From: Gemmatimonadaceae bacterium
GTDB taxonomy: Bacteria > Gemmatimonadota > Gemmatimonadetes > Gemmatimonadales > Gemmatimonadaceae
Reading direction: 5' to 3'
DNA length: 64,000 bases
NCBI GenBank assembly: GCA_025358925.1
Contig: JANYHT010000013.1
Coordinates: forward strand, 62,001 to 126,000
Shown: piece by piece, positions 25,846 through 41,246 of the stretch
Layout: every line of letters starts with the position of its first letter
How positions within the stretch are numbered: position 1 is the first letter of the stretch
Notes under the pieces: generated by a model
The model's database searches: none
Seen by the model: the letters and a program-made list of their open reading frames with translations, nothing else
What the model was told of the DNA's origin: nothing
Translations under genes and position numbers: made by a program

Positions 25846-27783
25846 TTACTTCCCCGGCAGCGCAAATGCCACCAACTCCGCCTCACTGCCAGCGCCTGTC
25901 GCAACTACGACGTACTGCGTGCCGCTCGCTGTCCGGTATGTCATCGGCACGGAATACGCTTCTTTGCCGAGGTCAAATGACCACAATGTTTTTCCGCTCA
26001 CTTTGTCGATCGCATACAACACCGATCCACCACCGCTCACAAACAGCAGTCCACCATTCGTCACGATCGGTCCTGGCGCACCCGCTACGCCAAGTAGCGG
26101 CGGCAGTGCCACACCTTTCAGCATTGGGATTTTGCGAAGTTCCGGCGTGTCACCAAATGGAATATTCCACAGATGCTTGCCCGTATTGAGATTGATCGCC
26201 ACGAGCGTTCCGTACGGTGGTTTATTGAGCGGGATGGTGGTGCCGCGTGCAGGAGCGCGTGCGGACGACGTCTCGAGACTTACGCTCACGGACGATCCTG
26301 GTAAGTCTGCCGTGTACGGCACATCAATGGTATCGGTACGCGTGTTGTTTTTAAAAATGCGATACATCACGGGACTGTTCGTTGCCTTGATGTAGATGAT
26401 GCCCGATGACGGATCGAAAGCACCACCGCCCCACCCGGAGCCACCGATCGCGCCCGGCATGACGATGGTTCCTTGCATGGAAGGCGGCGTGTACAGCGCA
26501 CCAAAGCGATAGCGACGAAGCACCTCCAACGCGCGTTGCTTGATCTCCGGTGTGAAATCCGCCACGTCGTTTTCACTAAAACCTTGCACGGCAAATGGCG
26601 CGGGCAATGTTGGAACGGGCTGCGTTCGCGACGTGGCCTCCCCGGTGACATCGCTCTGCGGTACTGCGCGTTCGACGATCGGCCAAACAGGCTTTCCACT
26701 GACACGATCAAATACAAACAGATAACCCATCTTGGTTGGCACCGCGACAGCATCGATGCGTTTGCCAGCCACGCGAATGGTGCCGAGTACGGGTGGCGCC
26801 GGCGGATCGTAGTCCCAGAGTCCGTGATGGGTCAATTGAAAGTGCCACACGCGCCGACCAGTCTTTGCATCGAGACACACAATCGATTCGCCGTAAAGAC
26901 CGTCGCCCTTTCGCTCGCCGCCATACCAATCGTTGCTGGGTGTACTCACGGGTAAGTACACCAGGCCACGCGCCGCATCAAGTGAAAACGGCGCCCACAC
27001 ATTGGTGTGACCTGTCGTGCGCCACGAACCGTCTTTCCACGTGTTGACACCAAACTCCGATGAGTCGGGAATGGTGTGAAAACTCCACACGCGTTTCCCC
27101 GTTCGCACATCAAACGCTTGCACGTCGCCCGGCGGATCGTTCTGATATCGCAAGCGGTCGCCCACCCCGTTGCCAACGATCACAAGATTTTTATATACGA
27201 CGGGCGGCGACGTATTGGTGTAATGCGTCTTCGTGACAGCGCGTCGCAGCTGTGCGGTGAGATCCACAACACCTGTATCCCCAAAGCTGCGAATGGGTTG
27301 TCCGGTTGCGGCGTCGAGCGCGATAAGATTCCAACGACTATTCATAAACACACGTCGTTGCGTGCCATCCGTCCACGTCGCCACACCGCGATGCACAAAG
27401 CCCGTGCCATTCGACGGTTGCCCGGACTTATAGGCGGCGGGATCGTACGTCCAGAATGGACGCCCTGTTGCTGCATTCATTGCCACAACGCGATTGTACG
27501 GCGTGCTGAAAAACAGGGTGTCGCCGATCATCAGCGGTGTCGCCTGGAAATTGCCAGGGCGTGCCGCAACGGTGGAATCTGAAGTGCGAATTGGTGCTTC
27601 GCCGGTGCGCCAACGCCACGCGACCGCGAGTTGCGCTACGTTGTTGCGATCAATTTGTGCAAGCGTAGAATACTTCGAGGCGCCAGCATCGCCACCGTAC
27701 ACGGGCCATTCGACGCGCTGTGCACTAACGAGTACTGGAATCACGCACAACACGACGAGCGGAGTACGCATGATGTGGCGCAT
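25846..27783 (-). CDS. PQQ-dependent dehydrogenase (quinoprotein)
   Basis: A periplasmic quinoprotein of 645 residues with a signal peptide (LVVLCVIPVLVSA). The mature start WPVYGGDAGASKYSTLAQI and repeated tryptophan-docking blades (GRPFWTYDP, GKRVWSFHTI, GRRVWHFQ, GKHLWNIPFG, GKTLWSFDLG) identify an eight-bladed PQQ beta-propeller like glucose or alcohol dehydrogenases. It would oxidise a sugar or alcohol in the periplasm and pass electrons to quinone. There are no membrane helices and no CxxCH heme motif, so it is a soluble type. ATG 27771 is an alternative start. It is divergent from the next gene with 119 bp between starts. Confidence 0.88.
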   Translation of the reverse strand: MRHIMRTPLVVLCVIPVLVSAQRVEWPVYGGDAGASKYSTLAQIDRNNVAQLAVAWRWRTGEAPIRTSDSTVAARPGNFQATPLMIGDTLFFSTPYNRVVAMNAATGRPFWTYDPAAYKSGQPSNGTGFVHRGVATWTDGTQRRVFMNSRWNLIALDAATGQPIRSFGDTGVVDLTAQLRRAVTKTHYTNTSPPVVYKNLVIVGNGVGDRLRYQNDPPGDVQAFDVRTGKRVWSFHTIPDSSEFGVNTWKDGSWRTTGHTNVWAPFSLDAARGLVYLPVSTPSNDWYGGERKGDGLYGESIVCLDAKTGRRVWHFQLTHHGLWDYDPPAPPVLGTIRVAGKRIDAVAVPTKMGYLFVFDRVSGKPVWPIVERAVPQSDVTGEATSRTQPVPTLPAPFAVQGFSENDVADFTPEIKQRALEVLRRYRFGALYTPPSMQGTIVMPGAIGGSGWGGGAFDPSSGIIYIKATNSPVMYRIFKNNTRTDTIDVPYTADLPGSSVSVSLETSSARAPARGTTIPLNKPPYGTLVAINLNTGKHLWNIPFGDTPELRKIPMLKGVALPPLLGVAGAPGPIVTNGGLLFVSGGGSVLYAIDKVSGKTLWSFDLGKEAYSVPMTYRTASGTQYVVVATGAGSEAELVAFALPGK

Positions 27784-27902
27784 AGCAACACGAGTTCTGT
27801 GTGAGATAGTTGGCGGAGGCTGACACGCCCAGTGCGAAACTCCACAGGCCACTGCGCGCGTAGTAACGTTAGCATTATATCCGAACCGAGGCGGGAGCAC
27901 AG

Positions 27903-29809: not shown

Positions 29810-29839
29810 AATCCCTAATGCCTAATCCCTAACCCCTAG
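29810..29839. repeat. TCCCTAA heptamer array, right arm (inverted)
   Basis: AATCCCTAATGCCTAATCCC followed by TAACCCCTAG: about four copies in the orientation opposite to the left arm. The final CTA at 29836 is the stop codon (TAG) of the minus-strand ankyrin gene. Confidence 0.85.
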
Positions 29840-32058
29840 CATCCGACACAGCGATGGCTGTTCTTGGCGCCGAGTTTCTCGAGCAGCGCGATTGTTTCCG
29901 GAAACGGTCGTAGGCGTTGCACTGGTCCGTTCGCCATATCGACCGTGGTACGACCGTTTCGAGCAACCGCTTTTGGATCGGCGCCCTTACTCACGAGATA
30001 TAGAATCATCTCGTTATCTCCGCGCGCGGCGGCGTGATGCATTGGTGTATATCCGTTGAGATCGCGCTGATTCACATCCGCGCCTAACTCTTCGACGAGA
30101 TACTTCATTGCGGGCATCCAACCATCGGGTGCGTGGCGATGTGAGTTACCGGCGAAACCGTTGCCGTACCCAACCCCGGCGGCGCTATGAATGGGATACA
30201 CGCCAGTGCCAGCGGGGAATGCCTTCGATGCCGAGTCCATCGCGGGATCGAGCGACGGTGGCGCGGGAATCCCTTCAAACAGTGCGGCGAGGCCAGCCGC
30301 ACCGCCTGCACCGCCACCAGCTCCACCGCGTCCTCCCCCACGCCCGCCACGTCCACCACCACCGACGGTTGCACCAGCAGCAGCGGTCGTTGTATCACCG
30401 GCAACGGCGGCACCAGCTCCCGCCGCAGCACCAGCGGCCGCAAAGCCACCAGCACCGCCTGCTCCACCACGGCCACCGCGTCCTGCCGGTCGCGTGGACG
30501 GCACGTTCACGTCAGCACCATGCGCTTTGAGCAAGCGCATCGCATCGACGTCAACCGCATAGGCCGCGCGCCAAAATGGCGATGTACCATCGAGCATTTC
30601 AAGGCCACAGTTGGCGTTGCCGCAGTTGTCGTACGCAAAGAACCATAAATTCTTTTTCAAGCGTACGTTGACGTCCGCTCCAGCCTTGATGATGGCATCC
30701 ATCAACTCCAGATGCGTGGTTTTCTGGTTCTGTACTGACTGCGGCTGCGGAAAACGTGATCGCGGCAACCATTCGGTATTGATCGCCGCATAGAGTGGCG
30801 TGAGTCCTGGTGTGCTGCTGAGTTTCACATCCGCACCGCGCTGGACCAGCTTGAGCGCAAGATCGAACTGGCCATTAATCGTCGCCATCAATAACGGCGA
30901 TGTGCTGTCACCAGCACTGCGTTCATTGATGTTTGCGCCTCCATCAAGCAAGGCCATCGCAGCCGCGATGTTGCCTTGCCGCACGGCGTGATGCAACGCG
31001 GACAATCCGCCCATCGATCCGACAGTTCCGGCAAATCCGGCCACCCGACCGTCTGCCGTGTCGGCCGGCAATATCACATCGGCGCCACGCGGTGCAAGCG
31101 AATCTTTCGGTCCGGCATTTGGCAATGCACGACCGGCCGTGATGGCGTCTTGGATTTGTGTTGCGGTGAGCGTTTGCGTGGGCGGCGCATCTGGCGGACC
31201 GCGACTGGCAAACGCGGCCAGTTGCGCGGGCGTTGGTGCTGCACCGGCAGCGAGTGGATCAACAATGCCACCGCCACCACCGCCCGCACCGCCACGACCA
31301 GCTGCCGCTGCTGCCGCGTTCTTCGCCGCTGCCGCCTTCAACGAATCGCGCATCTTCTCTGGCAAGTACGAGAGCAACACGTCGTTGCGCTTTTTCGCCT
31401 GCGCGGTTTCACGCGCGTTCTGCGCTTGCAAATCAACTGTTTTGGTGAGGATGTTGGCATCAGCATGATTCTGCAACAACACCTTGATCGCGTCCGCGCG
31501 ATTGGCGTTTGCCGCAAACATCAAGGGCGTCTGCCCCCACTCAAATTCGCGCGCATTAATGTCGGCCTTCTTTGCGATCAATGCTGCAACGGCGTCCGCA
31601 CTGGACGACGCGGCGGCCAAATGCAAAGCTGTGGCACCGCCAACCGTGAGCGCATTGGGATCAGCGCCGGCAGCAAGCAACGCCTTCACCACGGCAGCGC
31701 GACCATTGCGCGCAGCCACGTGCAACGGTGTGTTGGCGCCAATGCGCGTCGTAGCTGAAACTTTTGCACCGGCCCGCAACAACAGTTCGGTCATCGCCGC
31801 ATCACCGCGATCTGCCGCCCAATGCAACGCCGTCATGCCGTCGCCCTGCGCCGCATTCACATTCGCTTTTTGCGCGATGAGTGTGCGCACCGTGGACATC
31901 TCGCCACGCATCGCGGCGTCGGCGAGCGACGTGACAACACGCTCACTACGGGGCGGTGTTGTTGCCGCCGCCAAGAGCAGCCACGCACCCAGCAGCGCGC
32001 CCGAGCGCAACACCGTACGACGTATTCCCCACTGAGGAGCCGCAGCAACGTTCATCAT
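29836..32058 (-). CDS. Exported ankyrin repeat protein
   Basis: A 740-residue protein with an N-terminal hydrophobic export segment (LLGAWLLLAAATT). Ankyrin repeats cover residues about 45-215 (GMTALHWAADRGDAAMTELLLRAGAK is one repeat type; also ANTPLHVAARNGR and GATALHLAAASS), then 350-500 and again 665-715 (GYTPMHHAAARGDNEMILYL). Two long Gly/Ala/Arg linkers with RGG runs separate them. The protein ends LGAKNSHRCVGC, a CxxC tail also seen in ankyrin proteins of this genomic context. It starts only 6 bp after the DUF1552 gene with a strong TAGGAG site, so it is in that operon. Its periplasmic partner is unknown. Confidence 0.87.
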   Translation of the reverse strand: MMNVAAAPQWGIRRTVLRSGALLGAWLLLAAATTPPRSERVVTSLADAAMRGEMSTVRTLIAQKANVNAAQGDGMTALHWAADRGDAAMTELLLRAGAKVSATTRIGANTPLHVAARNGRAAVVKALLAAGADPNALTVGGATALHLAAASSSADAVAALIAKKADINAREFEWGQTPLMFAANANRADAIKVLLQNHADANILTKTVDLQAQNARETAQAKKRNDVLLSYLPEKMRDSLKAAAAKNAAAAAAGRGGAGGGGGGIVDPLAAGAAPTPAQLAAFASRGPPDAPPTQTLTATQIQDAITAGRALPNAGPKDSLAPRGADVILPADTADGRVAGFAGTVGSMGGLSALHHAVRQGNIAAAMALLDGGANINERSAGDSTSPLLMATINGQFDLALKLVQRGADVKLSSTPGLTPLYAAINTEWLPRSRFPQPQSVQNQKTTHLELMDAIIKAGADVNVRLKKNLWFFAYDNCGNANCGLEMLDGTSPFWRAAYAVDVDAMRLLKAHGADVNVPSTRPAGRGGRGGAGGAGGFAAAGAAAGAGAAVAGDTTTAAAGATVGGGGRGGRGGGRGGAGGGAGGAAGLAALFEGIPAPPSLDPAMDSASKAFPAGTGVYPIHSAAGVGYGNGFAGNSHRHAPDGWMPAMKYLVEELGADVNQRDLNGYTPMHHAAARGDNEMILYLVSKGADPKAVARNGRTTVDMANGPVQRLRPFPETIALLEKLGAKNSHRCVGC

Positions 32059-32064
32059 GGTCTC

Positions 32065-33465
32065 CTACGCGTTAAGCGAGAATGCACCTACGCTGTCACC
32101 GAAGCTGCGCACATCGTCTACACCGAGCTTGTGCAAGAGCGAGAGCATGACGTCGGCCATCGGCGTTCCATCAGGTGCCTTGAGATGCAGGTTATTCGCC
32201 ATCTGCCCGTTTGCACCACCCAAGAGAATGAGGGGGCACCGACGGTGATTGTGAATGTTCGGATCGCCCATCGGCGAGCCGTACATGATGAGCGTTTTGT
32301 CCAACAAATTGCTATCGCCCTCCTTCGTGTTCTTGAGCTTGTCGAGGAGGTACGGCAGCTGCGCGACGTGGTAGCGATTGATCGTATTGAAGTCCATGAT
32401 CGCCGATTCGCGCCCACCGTGATGCGACGCCGGATGAAAGCCCTTATTCGTACCGCTTTCCGGAAACGTGCGGCTGGACGCATCGCGCCCCGTTTTAAAC
32501 GAGAACACGCGCGTCATGTCCGACTCAAACGCGAGCACCTGTACGTCGAACATCAACTTGACATGCTCGTCAAACGAATCCGGCACACCGGCTGGCGCTT
32601 CAGGCAGCGCACGTTCGGCGCCACTGCTGTTCCGTGCTTCCACGAGCTGAATACGACGTTCGAGTTCGCGGATATTTTCTAAGTATTGTTCGAGACGATG
32701 CCGATCTGACGCGCCCAAGTCGCGTTTGAGCGTGGCCATTTCGCCAGTCATCCAATCCAGGATGCTGCCGTTGGCTTTCCGCCGCGCGGCACGATCCACG
32801 TTATTCGATCCAGTACCAAACAGCAGATCAAACGCCGCGCGCGGATTACGAATCATCGGCAGCGGCTGCGTGGGCGACGCCCAGCTGATCGTGTCCGTGT
32901 ACGCACACGCGTAATTGTATGTGCAGCCGCCCGCCTGATCGAGATTCTCGATGCACAATTGCATCGACGGAATCGCGGTGTCTTGGCCAAGTCGTCGCGC
33001 GACGATCTGGTCGAAGGATGTGCCGACGTACAAGTCCGATCCCTGGGTCTGTTTCGGATGCGATTGCGTGAGGAACACCGCGCTCGATCGGAAATGGTCA
33101 CCGCCAATTTCCGGCGCATCAAACGGCTCGGCCATGCGCACATCCGTGTTGCTCACCACCGTCAGGTACTTCTTCCACGGCTCGAGCGACGCGAGTGCGC
33201 CTTCGGGATTGAGCTGAAAATCTCGTCCAACGCCTGCTGGCGCCCACAAGTTTTTTGAAGCGCCCCACGTGTTACTCCCCGCCGCGCCGTGCACGGTTTC
33301 AATGCAGATAACGCGCGTTTTGTCAGTGGGGGCAGTGCTCGCGGCCATCGCCCCGAACACGCGTCCCGCCGGCTTCATCGCGTCAAGATACGGCAACGCG
33401 ATAGTCGCACTCAATCCGCGGAGGAACGTGCGACGATGCAGATGCTTCTGGGTGAGAAACGTCAT
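32065..33465 (-). CDS. DUF1552 domain-containing Tat-exported protein
   Basis: A 466-residue member of DUF1552, which is almost always encoded next to DUF1592 cytochrome-like proteins. ATG 33465 (AAGGA site) gives a Tat signal with HRRTFLRGLSATIALPYLDA. The body has the DUF1552 hallmarks: GVGRDFQLNPEGALASLEPWKKYL early on, GDHFRSSAVFLTQSHPKQT, a central SILDWMTGEMATLKRDLGASDRHRL and the final VDDVRSFGDSVGAF. Related to sulfatase/alkaline phosphatase-like DUF1501 proteins, it may be a periplasmic hydrolase or cofactor partner. Its gene lies 46 bp after DUF1592 and 6 bp before the ankyrin gene. Confidence 0.9.
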   Translation of the reverse strand: MTFLTQKHLHRRTFLRGLSATIALPYLDAMKPAGRVFGAMAASTAPTDKTRVICIETVHGAAGSNTWGASKNLWAPAGVGRDFQLNPEGALASLEPWKKYLTVVSNTDVRMAEPFDAPEIGGDHFRSSAVFLTQSHPKQTQGSDLYVGTSFDQIVARRLGQDTAIPSMQLCIENLDQAGGCTYNYACAYTDTISWASPTQPLPMIRNPRAAFDLLFGTGSNNVDRAARRKANGSILDWMTGEMATLKRDLGASDRHRLEQYLENIRELERRIQLVEARNSSGAERALPEAPAGVPDSFDEHVKLMFDVQVLAFESDMTRVFSFKTGRDASSRTFPESGTNKGFHPASHHGGRESAIMDFNTINRYHVAQLPYLLDKLKNTKEGDSNLLDKTLIMYGSPMGDPNIHNHRRCPLILLGGANGQMANNLHLKAPDGTPMADVMLSLLHKLGVDDVRSFGDSVGAFSLNA

Positions 33466-33511
33466 GACGTTGGGTCCTTGAGGGGACGAAGGAAGTGTGA
33501 AACGTGAACGA

Positions 33512-36034
33512 CTAGTGTGACGACGCGTCGGCCGAAATCGGATCGGCGCGCTTGCTGCGAAATGCACTGCTATTCACCACGCCCATCACGAACGCGGAGA
33601 TTTTATATCCCTTGGATTCGGCATCTTTCGCGATCAGGCGCACCGTGGCCTGATCGAAATCTTCCACTCGTCGACCGATGGCGTAGGCCATCAAATTTTC
33701 AGTAAAAGACCGCACCAGCGGGATGGGCCGAGAGAGCAACGATTTATAGAGATCGGTGGGCGTGGCGACTTGGACGCCGTCATACATCTGACCACGCGTG
33801 TCGAGTGGCGCCCCGTTTTCACGATAGCGCAACTTTCCTGTCACGTCGAAATTGTCAAGCGCCAACCCGATCGGATCCATGTACTGATGGCACGCTTTGC
33901 ACGTGGGATTCGCACGGTGAATTTCCATGCGCTGTCGTGTGGTGAGCGGCTTGCCGTCTTTCGAGCCTTGCGTCTCTTCTAAGTCAGGAATGTTTGGCGG
34001 CGGCGGTGGTGGCGGCATGCCGATCAACACTTCCATCACCCACTTACCACGCAGCACCGGCGACGTGCGATTGCCCAACGATGTTTGCACGAGCATGCTG
34101 CCCTGTCCGAGCAATCCGCGACGCGTGTCGTCGGGATACTGCACCCTCCGGAACTCGTCACCAGTGACGTTCGGGAAACCGTAATGCTTGGCCAATCGCT
34201 CGTTGACGAACGTGTAATTGGCGGTGTACAAATCGAGCATGCTCTTATCGTTCTTCACGAGATCGTTAAAAAACAATTCCGTCTCGCGTTGCATCGCGGT
34301 CGTTACTTGCTGGTCGTAATCCGGAAAGAGAAATGCATCCGGATGGACTTTTTCCAAGTCCTGCAAACGCAACCACTGCGCCGCAAATCGCGTTGACAAC
34401 GCTTCGGAACGCGGGTCAGCGAGCATGCGCTTGACTTCGGCGTTGAAAATAGCTTTGTCGGACAGCTGCTGATGACGCGCAAGGCTGATGAGGCGTTCAT
34501 CGGGAATCGTGCCCCACAAGAAAAACGACAACCGCGAGGCGAGGTCGAAGTCACCGATGCGATAGTCTTTACCGGCCACCGCGTTCACCGGCGCCGGTTC
34601 GAAACGGAAAATGAAATACGGACTGGCGAGCACGGCTTGCACGGCACTCTGTAAACCATCTTCGAACGCGCCCTTGTCGGCGGATTTTGCGGCGCCATCA
34701 TAGAACGTCATCAAGCTGGATTTGTCGCGCGCCGTGAGTGGACGACGGTATGCGCGCGTTGCCAACCTCGTAATGATTTGATCGGCGCAGGCACGCTGCG
34801 CAACGCGACCATTCGGATTACACGTAACCAGCAGCCGACGGCTGGGAGACTCCGACACGCCGGTGACGCGATATGGACCGTTGATGTCCACTTCCATCAA
34901 CGGCGGTGCTTCGGTCGTACCAGCCGCCGCCGTACCCTGCGACGCACGCGACCATTCATGCGGCTTGATAAGGTCTTCGTACGGCCCTTCGGTACGGCGC
35001 ACAAACGCGACGGATACTTTGCGCTGTCCGGCTTTCACTTTGATTGGCTCGCTGCGCACGTAATCTGCACCGGCAGGCGCGTCAGCCGAGCCGTTGTTGC
35101 GTGCAATGCCCTTTTCGTACTTGAGCAACGCGACCTGCTCACCGTCAATCGAAACCACGAGATCTTCGAGACGAGCACCCATACCGCCGCCAACATTTAA
35201 CTTGAACTCGTACTGGCCATCGGCGGGGAACGTGTGCGTGACAACCATACCGCCGCGCGTTCCGTACGGCGTACCGTCTACGTGGTCCCACGGATGCTGC
35301 GAACCAAACGGTGACGTCTTGTACGCGGTCTGAGCAGGCAGCGCACGTCGATCACCCAGCGCCATGCGACTTACCGCGGCCGCGGCATTCAAGTACGACT
35401 CAAGCAAGGTCGCCGACAGTGCCTGTGCGTCGGAAATGTTGTCGAAGTTCGCGCTCTTTGTGTCGAGTGGGAGATAGTCGCCGGCGATGACTTGCACGCC
35501 GAGGAGATCTTTCACGACGCGCTCATACTCGGGGCGATTGATGCGTTGAAACGTACGCGTACCCGGATTGATAGGGCCAGCGTGATCGATCGTTGATTCG
35601 ATCGTTTCGACTAACGCCAACAGTGTGTCACCCGTGGGTTTTTTGGAGCCCGGCGGTGGCATCATCTGCGCACGCAATTTACGAATCATTTTTTCGGACA
35701 CCGCCACGTGGGACGCGGCGAGATCAACGTCATACTCGGCCAATACTAAGTTGCCCTTCTTTTGCGTGGCGCTATGACATGATCCGCAGTAACGCTGCAC
35801 AACGCCGGTGAGCGCAGCACTCGAAATGCCACGCGATCCGGTGGTCACCGCGCCACGTACGGCAAGCAGCGACGGCCGAACACCCCTCGCTGGTCGCGGA
35901 ATAGACCGTAACGACGTGGTTAACGCTGAGGACGACGGCGTTGCGGGTGGCGTTGATCGCACCGATGGGGGCGAGGAAGCGCTCGTGAGCGCGAACGCCG
36001 TCAACACTCCGGTACTCGCCAAAAACAAGTTCAT
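33512..36034 (-). CDS. DUF1592-family (PSCyt1/DUF1587/1595/1592/1588/1585) cytochrome-like protein
   Basis: An exported multi-domain protein of 840 residues (signal MNLFLASTGVLTAFALTSA). The domain order matches the planctomycete-type family: a PSCyt1 cytochrome domain with CxxCH at residues 83-87 (YCGSCHS) and an MMPPPG motif, DUF1587 (INRPEYERVVKDLLGV), a carbohydrate-binding-like module, DUF1595, DUF1592, DUF1588 and DUF1585. A second CxxCH lies near the end (NPTCKACHQYMDPIG). It is probably a periplasmic electron-transfer protein acting with DUF1552. ATG 36034 has an AAGGAG site. It leads a three-gene operon with DUF1552 and ankyrin. Confidence 0.9.
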   Translation of the reverse strand: MNLFLASTGVLTAFALTSASSPPSVRSTPPATPSSSALTTSLRSIPRPARGVRPSLLAVRGAVTTGSRGISSAALTGVVQRYCGSCHSATQKKGNLVLAEYDVDLAASHVAVSEKMIRKLRAQMMPPPGSKKPTGDTLLALVETIESTIDHAGPINPGTRTFQRINRPEYERVVKDLLGVQVIAGDYLPLDTKSANFDNISDAQALSATLLESYLNAAAAVSRMALGDRRALPAQTAYKTSPFGSQHPWDHVDGTPYGTRGGMVVTHTFPADGQYEFKLNVGGGMGARLEDLVVSIDGEQVALLKYEKGIARNNGSADAPAGADYVRSEPIKVKAGQRKVSVAFVRRTEGPYEDLIKPHEWSRASQGTAAAGTTEAPPLMEVDINGPYRVTGVSESPSRRLLVTCNPNGRVAQRACADQIITRLATRAYRRPLTARDKSSLMTFYDGAAKSADKGAFEDGLQSAVQAVLASPYFIFRFEPAPVNAVAGKDYRIGDFDLASRLSFFLWGTIPDERLISLARHQQLSDKAIFNAEVKRMLADPRSEALSTRFAAQWLRLQDLEKVHPDAFLFPDYDQQVTTAMQRETELFFNDLVKNDKSMLDLYTANYTFVNERLAKHYGFPNVTGDEFRRVQYPDDTRRGLLGQGSMLVQTSLGNRTSPVLRGKWVMEVLIGMPPPPPPPNIPDLEETQGSKDGKPLTTRQRMEIHRANPTCKACHQYMDPIGLALDNFDVTGKLRYRENGAPLDTRGQMYDGVQVATPTDLYKSLLSRPIPLVRSFTENLMAYAIGRRVEDFDQATVRLIAKDAESKGYKISAFVMGVVNSSAFRSKRADPISADASSH

Positions 36035-36288: not shown

Positions 36289-37956
36289 TCAAATCTCGTT
36301 GCGTTTGGCGAATTGCCCGATGTGATCGGCAGCGCGAAAGGCGAGTGCCTGAATCGTCATCGTTGGTTGGCCACGACCGCTCGTCACGAATGAACTTCCG
36401 TCCACGATAAAGAGATTTTTTACGTCATGCGCCCGATGGTATTTGTCCACAACTGACGTTTTTGGATCGTTTCCCATACGGCACGTCCCGAGTAAGTGCA
36501 CCGTGCTGCCGGGATCGTCGGAAATGGGCTGGTCGTGGATCTTGAGCGCGCCGGCGGCACTCAGCAGGTCACGTCCCCGGTCCTGGAAGTACTTGTAAAG
36601 ACGCAGATCGTGCTCGTGCTCCTTGAAGGTGACGCGCATGGCCGGTAGGCCCCACGCGTCCTTGAGCTCGGGATCGAGTGACACGCTGTTGCTGGCCACC
36701 GGAAGCGAAGTGGTGTGGCCGTACGACGAGAGCGAATTGAGAAACCACGGTCGCAGTCGCTGCTTAAAGCCCGCACCCCACTGTGGACCACCGCTCGGCA
36801 TTTCCATGGTGCGGAACAGCGCGGGCACGGAGATGCGAAAATCGTATCCGCCGCCGCCGATGAGATTGAGTTTTGGGTCGAGCTCGTACAATTCGTGCGT
36901 GATGCGCGTGACCACCGGCCCTTTATGCGCGTGCACTTCGTGTTCAAACTCGCCATGCGAAATACCAGCGCCGTTGAACATGAATCGTGTGCCCACCGTG
37001 CCGCTGCTATTCGCCAATCCGTTGGGAAAGCGATTGCTCTTGGACATGAGTAACAAACGCGGCGTCTCGGCACCGTTCGCGCACACCACCACCGCCTTCG
37101 CGCGTTGCACTACTTCTTTTTTGTCTCGGTCAAAATAGATGACGCCCCTCACGCGACCCGTGTCATCCGTTTCGATTTTACGCACGTAGCTGTGTGTGCG
37201 TAACTCGCAGCGACCGCTCTTTAGTGCCTCGGGAATCATGGTGTAGTTGGCGCCGGATTTCGCGCCCCACTCGCATGGAAAACCGAGACAGAAACCGCAG
37301 TTGTGGCAGGGCTGTCGTCCATTGTATTCGCGGGACAACAACGCCATCGATGCGGCCTTCGAACTCCACCCGAGTTTTTTGCACCCGACTTCGAGCAACA
37401 CGCCCGGTCCGTGCACATTGACGGGCGGCAACGGAAATGGCTTCGAGCGATGGGGCTCCCCTTTCGCGTTGCTCTCTTCGCCTGATACACCAACGGCCCA
37501 CTCGACGGCCGAGTAGTATGGTTCGAGTTCGTCGTACGTGATGGGCCAGTCGGCGAGGTCGGCGCCAGGCACGCCACCGCGTTGCGAAAATTCATTGAAG
37601 TCAATAGGACGAAAACGCCAATAGTTACCGGTGAAGTGCAGTGTGGTACCACCCACCGCTTTCGCGTACTGCACATACGGACGACGTTTCGCGACTTCGG
37701 ACGATGTCGCACGCCACGTTTGTGGTTGTGTATCAGGGTCGTTGGTCCACCGATTCCACACGAGCGCGCCCAGCTCATCGTGTTCCATGTCTTCCGGCGG
37801 CACGGCACGGCCCTGCTCCAAGAGCACGACATCAAAGCCTTGTCGCGTGAGTTCGCGTGCGACCGACGCACCGGCAACGCCGGACCCGATGATAACGAAA
37901 TCGACCGGTGTGTCCGTGGGAAATGTCTTTGTCGCGACCGGCTGTGTTTGACGCAT
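36289..37956 (-). CDS. GMC family oxidoreductase (gluconate/sorbitol dehydrogenase large-subunit type)
   Basis: An FAD-dependent dehydrogenase of 555 residues. The dinucleotide-binding motif VIIGSGVAGASVAREL is at residues 20-35 and the GMC motif AVGGTTLHFTGNYWR near 100. A four-Cys cluster CHNCGFCLGFPC around residue 214 is typical of the subgroup that pairs with a gluconate-2-dehydrogenase subunit 3, and the C-terminus has HLLGTCRMG and GSSFVTSGRGQPTMTIQALA. It would oxidise a sugar, sugar acid or polyol at the membrane. It has no signal of its own and probably travels through Tat with the small subunit, whose gene overlaps by one base (TGATG). Confidence 0.9.
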   Translation of the reverse strand: MRQTQPVATKTFPTDTPVDFVIIGSGVAGASVARELTRQGFDVVLLEQGRAVPPEDMEHDELGALVWNRWTNDPDTQPQTWRATSSEVAKRRPYVQYAKAVGGTTLHFTGNYWRFRPIDFNEFSQRGGVPGADLADWPITYDELEPYYSAVEWAVGVSGEESNAKGEPHRSKPFPLPPVNVHGPGVLLEVGCKKLGWSSKAASMALLSREYNGRQPCHNCGFCLGFPCEWGAKSGANYTMIPEALKSGRCELRTHSYVRKIETDDTGRVRGVIYFDRDKKEVVQRAKAVVVCANGAETPRLLLMSKSNRFPNGLANSSGTVGTRFMFNGAGISHGEFEHEVHAHKGPVVTRITHELYELDPKLNLIGGGGYDFRISVPALFRTMEMPSGGPQWGAGFKQRLRPWFLNSLSSYGHTTSLPVASNSVSLDPELKDAWGLPAMRVTFKEHEHDLRLYKYFQDRGRDLLSAAGALKIHDQPISDDPGSTVHLLGTCRMGNDPKTSVVDKYHRAHDVKNLFIVDGSSFVTSGRGQPTMTIQALAFRAADHIGQFAKRNEI

Positions 37957-38582
37957 CAGAGCACCCGTCCGAGCAACGTCATTTGGTTTTCCGGACGATC
38001 ATACCAACCGAACGGCGGCTTCTGCTCCATGGTGTGTTCCTGTCCAATAAACTTCCATCCGACGAAATCGCGATTGCCGCCGTATTTGGGCAAGGACAGA
38101 AAGCCCGCGATGGTGGCGAAACGCATCGCTCCAAAAAACGGCGTCTTCTCCATAGATCGCAACGTCAGATCCTGTTGCTCGGCGGTGAGTGCCGCGAATG
38201 TGGTCTTCCCGGGAAATGTGTTTGTCACGTATTTTGACAGTGCGACGAGGCCTCCATCAAATAACGGCACTTGTTCTTTGGCCGCGGCGCCGAGCATGCG
38301 ATCAATGAAATACACGACGCCGGCTTCTTTGGCGCCCGGTGCATCGTCGGTTGGAATAATGCGCGACGCGATGGCGTCGATGTCCGCACCTTGCGCGACG
38401 GAAAAGTGGGTCAGCGTCTGCGCGGGCGCCGGGGTGTCGGTCATGGTACCGAGTGGATTCGCCGCGCTCTTCACTTCGTCGCGTGCCGATTCTTTGCTAC
38501 ATGCGATGGCGGCGGTCAGCCACACGGCAGCGACACCGGACATGAAATCGCGACGTGAAACGGTATGATCGTGAGTTGTCAT
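37956..38582 (-). CDS. Gluconate 2-dehydrogenase subunit 3 family protein
   Basis: The small subunit of the flavin dehydrogenase, 208 residues. ATG 38582 gives a Tat signal with SRRDFMSGVAAVWLTAAIAC, so the complex is exported folded, carrying the FAD subunit along. The mature domain contains the family motifs VAQGADIDAIASRIIPTDD, then GVVYFIDRML and FWGAMRFATIAGFLS-like (FFGAMRFATIAGFLSLPKY), ending with GWYDRP. TGATG coupling with the GMC gene supports a stable heterodimer. The cytochrome c subunit found in classic gluconate dehydrogenases is not here; the CxxCH protein at 33.5-36 kb may take that role, which is inference. Confidence 0.9.
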   Translation of the reverse strand: MTTHDHTVSRRDFMSGVAAVWLTAAIACSKESARDEVKSAANPLGTMTDTPAPAQTLTHFSVAQGADIDAIASRIIPTDDAPGAKEAGVVYFIDRMLGAAAKEQVPLFDGGLVALSKYVTNTFPGKTTFAALTAEQQDLTLRSMEKTPFFGAMRFATIAGFLSLPKYGGNRDFVGWKFIGQEHTMEQKPPFGWYDRPENQMTLLGRVL

Positions 38583-38632
38583 GCGCGAATATACGTCCGA
38601 CAGTGCCATAGCAACAGAGTGTCCGCGATGCG

Positions 38633-39421
38633 TTATGGACGTGCCTCAAGATCCCGAAGCCAGATATTTCGAAAACGGACGGGATGCCCGTGGTCTTGCA
38701 GTGAGATAGGCAAACGATCCGCGTGCGCTGCATAGGGAGGTCGCGACTGATTTGCAGTTGGCCCCACCAGCTCCACGTGATCCTGCACTAACACTTCGTT
38801 GTGCAGCACGGTGACGATGGCCGGGGATTGCACATGGCCCGATGCATTAAAGCGCGGGCGACGAAAGATGATGTCGTAGCTTTGCCAAACCCCCGGTGGT
38901 CGGCTGGCGTTCACGAGCGGCGGATACTGCCCGTACACGGAGGCGGCCTGTCCGTCGGCATACGTGACGTTGCCGTACGAGTCGAGTACCTGCACTTCGT
39001 ACATGCCCATAAAAAAGACGCCGCTGTTGCCGCGATCTTGGTCGGTACCGTGCGCCGGGTTCGGCGACATCCATTCGATGTGGAGTTGTGCGTCGCCGAA
39101 CGACTGTCGCGTGAACATCATGCCTTTTCCCGCGGCGACTTCGACTGCGCCATCGATGAGTCGCCATGCCGCGGGCGCGCCTTTGTCGCTCTTCCAGTTG
39201 GCGAGGCTCGCGCCGTCGAACAGCACGATGGCGTCGGAGGGCGGCGGGACCGGGAGTGCCGGCGCTCCCGGTGTGATGATCGGTGGACGAGGTCGCTCTT
39301 TAGAATGCTGCGGCCACGACGACATTGGATTCGGTATAGACTGACCGTCGCCCGTTGACGGCGAGAGCGCCAGCGAAATAGCGGTGATCAAAACGAGCAG
39401 TGGCGGGAAAGCGCGCGTCAT
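38633..39421 (-). CDS. DUF1080 (3-keto-disaccharide hydrolase-like) exported protein
   Basis: A 262-residue exported protein with a signal peptide (PPLLVLITAISLALS) and a DUF1080 concanavalin-like fold. Motifs are AIVLFDGASLANWK at the domain start, then LHIEWMSPNPAHGTDQDRGNSGVFFMG and VWQSYDIIFRRPRF. Such domains occur in 3-keto-glycoside hydrolases and in sugar-binding proteins. ATG 39421 is used because the long upstream extension has no coding character. It ends 50 bp before the start of the gluconate-dehydrogenase small-subunit gene and is probably in the same transcript, which would link sugar oxidation to 3-keto-sugar cleavage. Confidence 0.85.
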   Translation of the reverse strand: MTRAFPPLLVLITAISLALSPSTGDGQSIPNPMSSWPQHSKERPRPPIITPGAPALPVPPPSDAIVLFDGASLANWKSDKGAPAAWRLIDGAVEVAAGKGMMFTRQSFGDAQLHIEWMSPNPAHGTDQDRGNSGVFFMGMYEVQVLDSYGNVTYADGQAASVYGQYPPLVNASRPPGVWQSYDIIFRRPRFNASGHVQSPAIVTVLHNEVLVQDHVELVGPTANQSRPPYAAHADRLPISLQDHGHPVRFRNIWLRDLEARP

Positions 39422-39509
39422 ACAGTGCTCCCAGATTGAAGGGACGGTGTGTTGCCAATGTACGGGTTGCACGCATCCGACGAGCAGGAGACGATGCATA
39501 TTCCGTTTT

Positions 39510-41246
39510 ATGCGACCCATCACACATGTTGCACCGCGCCCGCTGCTGCTGGCGATGTCTTTCATCCACGCATTATGCGTCGCGCCGTTGTTGCACGCGC
39601 AGATCATCACGCGTGTCGATAGTACCACATCCGCAGCGCGCGGCCCTCGTATTGTGACGCTACCTCCGTCGACACGCGCTGACACCTTGCGCGGCTCGTT
39701 CGCGACCGCCGGTCGATCGTGGTGGGACGTTACCTTCTACGATTTGCACGTGGATATTGTGCCGCGCGATAGCAGCGTGCACGGCTATAATGCGATCACA
39801 TATCGCGTGATCGCACCGGCGCGTGAGTTACAGATTGATTTAATGGAACCGCTCGTTGTTGATAGCATGCTGCAGGATAAGCGGCGCCTCAAGTATCGTC
39901 GCGAGGGTAACGCGTTTTTTGCGACCTTAGTGGCTCAGCAGCGAGCGGGTGAGCAGAAAGTGGTAACGGTGTTTTATCATGGGCGGCCGCAGGTTGCGAA
40001 AAACCCGCCATGGCAAGGAGGCGTGAGTTGGCTCGCCGACAGCCTCAAGCGGCCGTGGATCGTGACGACCGATCAAGGCATGGGTGCCTCGGTGTGGTGG
40101 CCAAACAAAGACACGCAAGCGGATGAACCGGATAGCCAACGCGTGGCGTTGACGGTGCCTGATCCGATGGTGGACGTGTCGAACGGTCGATTGCGCAGTA
40201 CGACACATCATGCGAACGGCACGACCACGTACGAATGGTTTGCGGTGAACCCGATCAACAACTATGCGATCGCGATTGCTGCGGGTAGCTACGCGCACTA
40301 CAGCGACGTGTACCAAGGCGAGAAGGGACCGCTCACGCTCGACTACTGGCCGTTGGACTACAACATCGACAATGCGCATCGACAGTTTGTGCAATCACGA
40401 TCCATGCTGCAGTGCTTCGAACATTGGTTTGGTCCGTATCCGTGGTACGAAGACGGGTACAAACTTTTAGAAGTACCAAACGCCGGCATGGAGCATCAGA
40501 GCGCCGTCGCGTATGGCAACTGGTATCAGAACGGATATCGGAAGCGGGATGGCTCAGGTACGGGGATTGGATTCAAGTTTGATTTTATCATCGTACACGA
40601 AAGCGCACACGAATGGTTTGGCAACAACATCACCACGAAAGACATGGCGGACATGTGGGTGCATGAGAGTTTCGCCAATTATGCCGAAGGTCTTTACGCG
40701 GAATGTCAGTTCGGTACTGCGGCGGGCGCGCAGTACATCATTGGAAACCGACGTGGCATTCGCAACGATCGGCCCATCATTCCCGCGTACGGCGTGAACG
40801 CGCAGGGCTCGGGCGATATGTATCCGAAGGGTGGCGAGATGCTGCACACCATTCGGCAACTTGTCGGCGACGATGAAAAATGGCGCGGCATTTTGCGAGG
40901 ACTGAGTGCAACCTTCTGGCACCAAACCGTGATGGGGCAGCAGATCGAGGATTACATCAGTACGCACGCTGGCCTTCCACTGGTGAAAGTATTCGATCAG
41001 TATTTGCGGACGACGATGGTGCCGGTGCTCGAATATGCGTTGTCTGCCGAGACACTGCGCTACCGGTGGACCAATGTGGTGCCGGGGTTTGCGATGCCGA
41101 TTCCGGCGACGGTGGTGTGGCCGACGTTGACCGTCATCCATCCGACCACGGAGTGGCAGACACTGACGGTGAAGTTGGCGAACGCGGCGGATTTTCGGGT
41201 GGATGAGAATTACTTCGTGACGACACGGCTGGTATCGGAGCGTTGA
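39510..41246 (+). CDS. Secreted M1 family zinc aminopeptidase
   Basis: A 578-residue exported metallopeptidase (signal PLLLAMSFIHALCVAPLLHA). The gluzincin active site is complete: HESAH at residues 363-367 (zinc ligands His363 and His367, catalytic Glu364) and the third ligand Glu386 in VHESFANYAE, the HExxH-x18-E arrangement. The substrate-binding GxMEN motif reads AGMEHQS. Without the full C-terminal domain of PepN it is of the short bacterial M1 type, releasing N-terminal residues from peptides outside the cytoplasm. It is divergent from the DUF1080 gene and is followed by repeat copy C. Confidence 0.9.
   Translation: MRPITHVAPRPLLLAMSFIHALCVAPLLHAQIITRVDSTTSAARGPRIVTLPPSTRADTLRGSFATAGRSWWDVTFYDLHVDIVPRDSSVHGYNAITYRVIAPARELQIDLMEPLVVDSMLQDKRRLKYRREGNAFFATLVAQQRAGEQKVVTVFYHGRPQVAKNPPWQGGVSWLADSLKRPWIVTTDQGMGASVWWPNKDTQADEPDSQRVALTVPDPMVDVSNGRLRSTTHHANGTTTYEWFAVNPINNYAIAIAAGSYAHYSDVYQGEKGPLTLDYWPLDYNIDNAHRQFVQSRSMLQCFEHWFGPYPWYEDGYKLLEVPNAGMEHQSAVAYGNWYQNGYRKRDGSGTGIGFKFDFIIVHESAHEWFGNNITTKDMADMWVHESFANYAEGLYAECQFGTAAGAQYIIGNRRGIRNDRPIIPAYGVNAQGSGDMYPKGGEMLHTIRQLVGDDEKWRGILRGLSATFWHQTVMGQQIEDYISTHAGLPLVKVFDQYLRTTMVPVLEYALSAETLRYRWTNVVPGFAMPIPATVVWPTLTVIHPTTEWQTLTVKLANAADFRVDENYFVTTRLVSER

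Follow-up and report, generated by a model that had tools for sequence, protein, structure and literature searches.

In Verrucomicrobia, PSCyt and PSD genes stand beside genes of unknown function, the function of the PSCyt genes themselves is also unknown, and sulfatase genes are often found near them (PMC5615132). Among proteins that have been studied, the closest relatives are Cbp2D of Cellvibrio japonicus and TERTU_2913 and TERTU_3803 of Teredinibacter turnerae, redox proteins associated with cellulose and at first linked to an LPMO. These carbohydrate-linked proteins join a c-type cytochrome domain to a C-terminal domain with CxxCH (PMC8981238, PMC12542752, PMC10916295). Their X183 domains are heme-binding, cbp2D is important when cells grow on cellulose (PMC8981238, PMC10916295, PMC12542752), and the Teredinibacter X183 domains failed to drive the LPMO (PMC10916295). 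Ankyrin proteins paired with catalases are also described: KatB reaches full activity only with periplasmic AnkB, and the trafficking of hemin to KatA goes through Cj1386 (PMC10294975). Our literature search found no work on DUF1592 together with DUF1552.

The locus described here lies in the window, the whole stretch of 64,000 nucleotides of Gemmatimonadaceae bacterium DNA that was analyzed, where DUF1592, DUF1552 and ankyrin genes form a triad at positions 29836-36034 of the minus strand. The triad resembles the PSCyt3/PSD loci of Verrucomicrobia in its PSCyt/PSD domain set and in having a conserved neighbor of unknown function, but it adds the ankyrin gene as a near-constant third component (PMC5615132). 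The window's DUF1592 protein shares PSD3 (DUF1587) and two CxxCH motifs with Cbp2D as published (PMC8981238), and its DUF1592 region may correspond to X132. Unlike the triad proteins, the Cbp2D and TERTU proteins are secreted and multidomain, some have separate CBMs, and the portions of the reports at hand mention no ankyrin partner. The catalase-ankyrin pairs are similar in that an ankyrin gene is linked to a heme protein, here a predicted one, and in the periplasmic location of AnkB; however, the neighbors identified around the triad are not catalases and the partner families differ.

The gene unit and its encoded proteins

Exactly 46 and 6 bp separate the three genes, which confirms the single tight unit claimed in an earlier sequence-only reading of this DNA. 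The closest related contigs to that of the window come from Gemmatimonadota. A second complete triad is present on another contig of the same genome, near TonB-receptor/SusD-like genes and an HpcH/HpaI-like gene (named by homology and sequence). Because of this second full triad and the co-occurrence of the three families across the phylum (see below), the arrangement is not a chance one. Upstream of the triad in the window (36289-39685, minus strand) are genes for a GMC oxidoreductase, gluconate 2-dehydrogenase subunit 3 and DUF1080 (3-keto-disaccharide hydrolase); among the fetched loci, the GMC gene was seen near the triad only in one close relative, L006. A PQQ-type dehydrogenase gene is found downstream (25846-27900, minus strand), and six loci from the same genus have a homologue on that side too, ~4 kb from the triad.

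The first gene (33512-36034, minus strand) starts with an ATG at 36034, preceded by aaggag, and encodes a predicted exported two-heme c-type cytochrome of 840 aa. Pfam matches gave the order PSD3-PSD5-PSD4-PSCyt3-PSD2, with PSD4 (DUF1592) at 154.7 bits and PSCyt3 at 115.3 bits, both above the curated cut-off. As claimed earlier, two CxxCH motifs are present, and both are invariant in the Gemmatimonadota alignment. The first is CGSCH (residues 83-87; 35774-35788, minus strand) and is followed by the invariant M125 in MMPPPG; the second is CKACH (residues 712-716; 33887-33901, minus strand), within PSCyt3 and close to the conserved H706. M125 and H706 are possible axial heme ligands. C712, C715 and H716 are kept in every aligned sequence from all phyla examined. 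The N-terminal motif occurs in Gemmatimonadota, in Pseudoalteromonas and in one Novosphingobium and is absent from Sphingobium; Planctomyces has it in a distinct gene upstream, which also encodes PSCyt1 and PSD3. Among PDB sequences, the region of the N-terminal heme matched cytochrome c555 weakly (E 0.012); PDB sequence searches with DUF1592 returned no relative and no X183 match. An inserted beta-sandwich (residues 234-388; 34871-35335, minus strand) resembles CBM6/CBM35/CBM36: in the low-confidence AlphaFold2 model (mean pLDDT 63.6) the insert (model residues 166-323, protein residues ~231-388) matched CBM36, CBM6 and CBM35 at Z ~10 over ~100 aligned residues, these families heading the listed matches. 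Since this fold is shared by proteins that do not bind sugar, sugar binding by the insert is a suggestion only.

The second gene (32065-33465, minus strand) encodes a probable metalloprotein of 466 aa that matches HXXSHH/DUF1552 (PF07586) at 287 bits, above the cut-off. Its predicted export through Tat, also proposed in the earlier reading, agrees with the motif RRTFL in HRRTFLRG (residues 11-15; 33421-33435, minus strand), and the pattern RRx[FLVM][LIVMF] is found in 71 of 76 relatives. Confidence in the structure model is low (mean pLDDT 51, pTM 0.61), and in VIA-align all 50 of the 50 listed rows belonged to the alkaline phosphatase superfamily at Z ~11-12, so the core is predicted to adopt an alkaline-phosphatase-type fold. 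Foldseek with the DUF1592 and DUF1552 models gave no match at E<=0.001, and PDB sequence searches with DUF1552 gave a chance match only. The model fold is common to ENPP and sulfatases, but DUF1552 differs from them in an apparent loss of the nucleophile and in a His-rich conserved set. When HFRSSAVFLTQ is aligned by eye to the sulfatase signature CxPSRxxLLTG, the invariant H124 (33094-33096, minus strand) would take the place of the nucleophile, which is Ser, Thr or Cys in this superfamily, so that the protein seems to carry a His-rich site at this position. H124, D152, H344 and H405 are conserved in 19-20 of 20 diverse sequences, H344 being the first residue of the HXXSHH motif (H344-H349; 32419-32436, minus strand). 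C181 and C187 are kept only in Gemmatimonadota and in the ankyrin-linked Novosphingobium. A profile comparison of DUF1552 with DUF1501 of the same genome detected no relation (probability 0.2, from a shallow alignment). A comparable two-gene arrangement, a DUF1501 gene beside a DUF1800-like gene of 662 aa, was observed at L129 (6439-9735, minus strand).

The third gene (29836-32058, minus strand) encodes a 740-aa protein in which Pfam recognizes Ank repeats, conserved repeat blocks alternating with low-complexity Gly/Ala-rich linkers. It is predicted to be exported, as had been proposed, from an N-terminal hydrophobic stretch found in 71 of 76 rows. The protein ends in CVGC (C737 and C740; 29839-29850, minus strand), part of a family motif N(N/S)HxCxxC that stands at the C-terminus or within a few residues of it, each of the two cysteines being 92% conserved. 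The motif is missing from the last 24 residues of L113 and of seven divergent rows (L083-L088, L100); these seven are partners without the CxxC, and in L084 and L086 the ankyrin copies are on the opposite strand.

Co-inheritance across the Gemmatimonadota

To follow the three families, 150 Gemmatimonadota genomes were surveyed, the ankyrin family being recognized by a profile of its C-terminus at E<=1e-12. DUF1552 was found in 56 genomes and the ankyrin family in exactly the same 56; DUF1592 was found in 57, the extra one (G013) having it at a contig end. Since related genomes do not count as independent, the Fisher value calculated for this co-occurrence should be read with caution; the family is present in 22 of the 74 genera. 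Family totals were 247, 246 and 235 copies, with up to 12 per genome, and the numbers of DUF1552 and ankyrin copies in each genome were nearly equal. Copy numbers correlated at 0.99 for DUF1552/DUF1592 and 0.96 for DUF1552/ankyrin. The multiple copies within one genome suggest different substrates.

The gene neighborhood was explored at 60 DUF1552 sites fetched from the listed matches; neighbors were disregarded in the choice, yet the sample is not random. All 60 loci held a DUF1592 open reading frame and one matching the ankyrin profile, and the gene order was the same at nearly all of the ~60 sites. By script, 61 of 62 DUF1552 open reading frames had DUF1592 adjacent on the same strand, and 58 of 62 had the ankyrin gene there. 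L097, L098 and L107 fall out of this count because of long stop-to-stop frames. The ankyrin gene of L084 and L086 lies on the other side as well as on the other strand, and L100 has a gap of ~1.8 kb. The distance matrices of the three proteins agreed closely (Mantel r 0.93-0.955), a value reached in 0 of 2000 permutations. A constant fourth gene, which might have pointed to the substrate, was sought across the 60 loci and none was found.

Some neighbors recur at several of these sites. A creatininase-family gene is near the triad in 11 of the 60 loci; in L074, L075, L081, L092 and L104, which represent several families of the phylum, it is directly upstream of DUF1592, at 4-89 bp. HpcH/HpaI aldolase-like genes are found in 9 of the 60 loci. 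A number of Gemmatimonadota loci have SusC/SusD-type neighbors, among them the second triad of the window's genome.

Since they are strictly co-inherited across the phylum, the three proteins are almost certainly one extracytoplasmic working unit, and the view that they form one exported module is strongly supported. The earlier idea of the ankyrin gene as a recurring partner thus holds within the Gemmatimonadota, where it is a regular neighbor, but not universally beyond the phylum.

Relatives in other phyla and in phages

Among the individual loci examined from outside the phylum, the full triad was found in the same order on a Novosphingobium plasmid (L117). A Planctomyces plasmid (L118) carries the DUF1592/DUF1552 pair followed by DUF1080. 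On three Sphingobium plasmids (L115, L116, L122) a cytochrome b561-type gene comes after the pair, and L115 and L116 also have a cytochrome c or c'. In Pseudoalteromonas (L120), DUF1552 follows a CBM26-GSDH-cytochrome c-PSD fusion, GSDH being a sugar dehydrogenase domain. A search with the ankyrin profile beside the Planctomyces, Sphingobium, other Novosphingobium and Pseudoalteromonas pairs gave no match. The Sphingobium relatives have no N-terminal heme motif and are not long enough to contain the CBM-like insert; their genes lie near those for a TonB receptor, Rieske oxygenase, acyl-CoA dehydrogenase and CoA ligase, as in aromatic- or steroid-type catabolism.

Scanning IMG/VR with the DUF1552 alignment uncovered five loci (L131-L135) on contigs of T4-like phages. 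L132, L133 and L134 hold the same DUF1552 gene, 100% identical over the query, and the L132 record also contains genes for a T4-type DNA polymerase, UvsX, DnaB helicase, a sliding clamp and dNMP kinase. In L131, DUF1552 is duplicated in tandem, in a record with baseplate wedge genes; the L135 record has a PhoH-like gene, and the L131 and L135 records each contain a phage-type adenylosuccinate synthetase gene. In a maximum-likelihood tree the phage sequences fell among those of Gemmatimonadota, with three label changes needed. The second L131 copy and L135 form a group next to a class-level clade, and the first L131 copy stands beside a clade of the window's family; the tree gave the L132 sequence no resolved placement. 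From these positions, the hosts are presumably Gemmatimonadota. Key residues are intact in the full-length phage copies, and the L135 gene is cut by the contig end. Neither DUF1592 nor the ankyrin family was found in the five phage records, which are fragments. No INPHARED phage had DUF1552, and scans of viral contigs with the Planctomyces and Novosphingobium copies gave no relatives. The carriage of DUF1552 alone by phages points to it as a key component of the module.

A probable redox role for the module and its alternatives

The sequence-only reading had proposed electron transfer or modification; the former we infer with good support from the two conserved CxxCH motifs and the invariant Met in MMPPPG, together with the contexts found elsewhere, namely cytochrome c' and b561 in Sphingobium and the cytochrome c/sugar dehydrogenase fusion in Pseudoalteromonas. 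DUF1552 is probably the catalytic subunit and DUF1592 the electron carrier. We give an even chance to the fuller proposal that the triad is an exported redox complex in which DUF1592 also docks the substrate and the ankyrin protein is a partner. The DUF1080 gene beside the Planctomyces pair and the heme-binding X183 domains of the published relatives also speak for it. In such a complex, DUF1552 would be exported through Tat in a folded and probably metal-loaded state, and catalysis would take place at the His-rich site in the alkaline-phosphatase fold. One heme of DUF1592 would reside in the conserved PSCyt3 core and the second, class-I-like N-terminal heme would be the electron outlet, the CBM-like insert positioning a carbohydrate-like substrate. 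Electrons may then leave the DUF1552 site for the PSCyt3 heme, move on to the N-terminal heme and end up on periplasmic cytochromes. The ankyrin protein would be a dedicated partner in assembly, cofactor loading or docking.

The match of the DUF1552 model to ENPP and sulfatases, as well as the sulfatase genes near PSCyt genes in Verrucomicrobia, could instead suggest a phosphatase- or sulfatase-like hydrolase, with DUF1592 as a sensor or accessory and the module stripping a charged group from a polymer. This seems improbable, as the by-eye alignment places an invariant His where the nucleophile would be, and a predicted two-heme partner, with cytochrome c' and b561 elsewhere, fits redox chemistry better. 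The features shared with Cbp2D and the CBM-like insert would also suit a DUF1592 that donates electrons to an LPMO as proposed for Cbp2D, with DUF1552 and the ankyrin protein in support. However, LPMO_10, the class searched, was found in only 1 of the 150 genomes (G137, one of the 56 with the triad) and was not found in the window's genome, and the X183 result from Teredinibacter also speaks against it. With no LPMO_10 in 55 of the 56 genomes that carry the triad, LPMO reduction is not its general role in Gemmatimonadota; we rejected the partnership for this phylum and consider it very improbable overall.

Alternatively, the ankyrin protein might take no part in turnover and act as a cofactor-loading or stabilizing chaperone, as in the AnkB/KatB and Cj1386/KatA precedents (PMC10294975). 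Co-inheritance and the conserved terminal CxxC agree with this, whereas the divergent members without CxxC and the pairs of other phyla without a neighboring ankyrin gene do not; we put its chances somewhat below even. Because such pairs exist, the ankyrin protein is not needed by every pair. The substrate, too, could be of another kind. The Sphingobium relatives, which have no insert, adjoin genes of aromatic- or steroid-type catabolism, so carbohydrate is not the substrate of all members. That context and the HpcH/HpaI aldolase-like neighbors would favor aromatic, terpenoid or steroid-like compounds for the module in general; the CBM-like insert and the SusC/SusD-type neighbors argue against this, which makes it unlikely.

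Tentatively, the redox complex could represent a new kind of exported oxidoreductase, in which an alkaline-phosphatase fold has become a redox metal site feeding a CBM-bearing two-heme cytochrome, with a dedicated ankyrin activator; T4-like phages of Gemmatimonadota would then carry its catalytic subunit, as an auxiliary metabolic gene sustaining the host module during infection. Some environmental bacteria have many cytochrome genes of the planctomycete type, and the literature that we found reports no function for them. A strict triad with a defined partner, defined motifs and a phage-carried subunit makes the function of these cytochromes directly testable.
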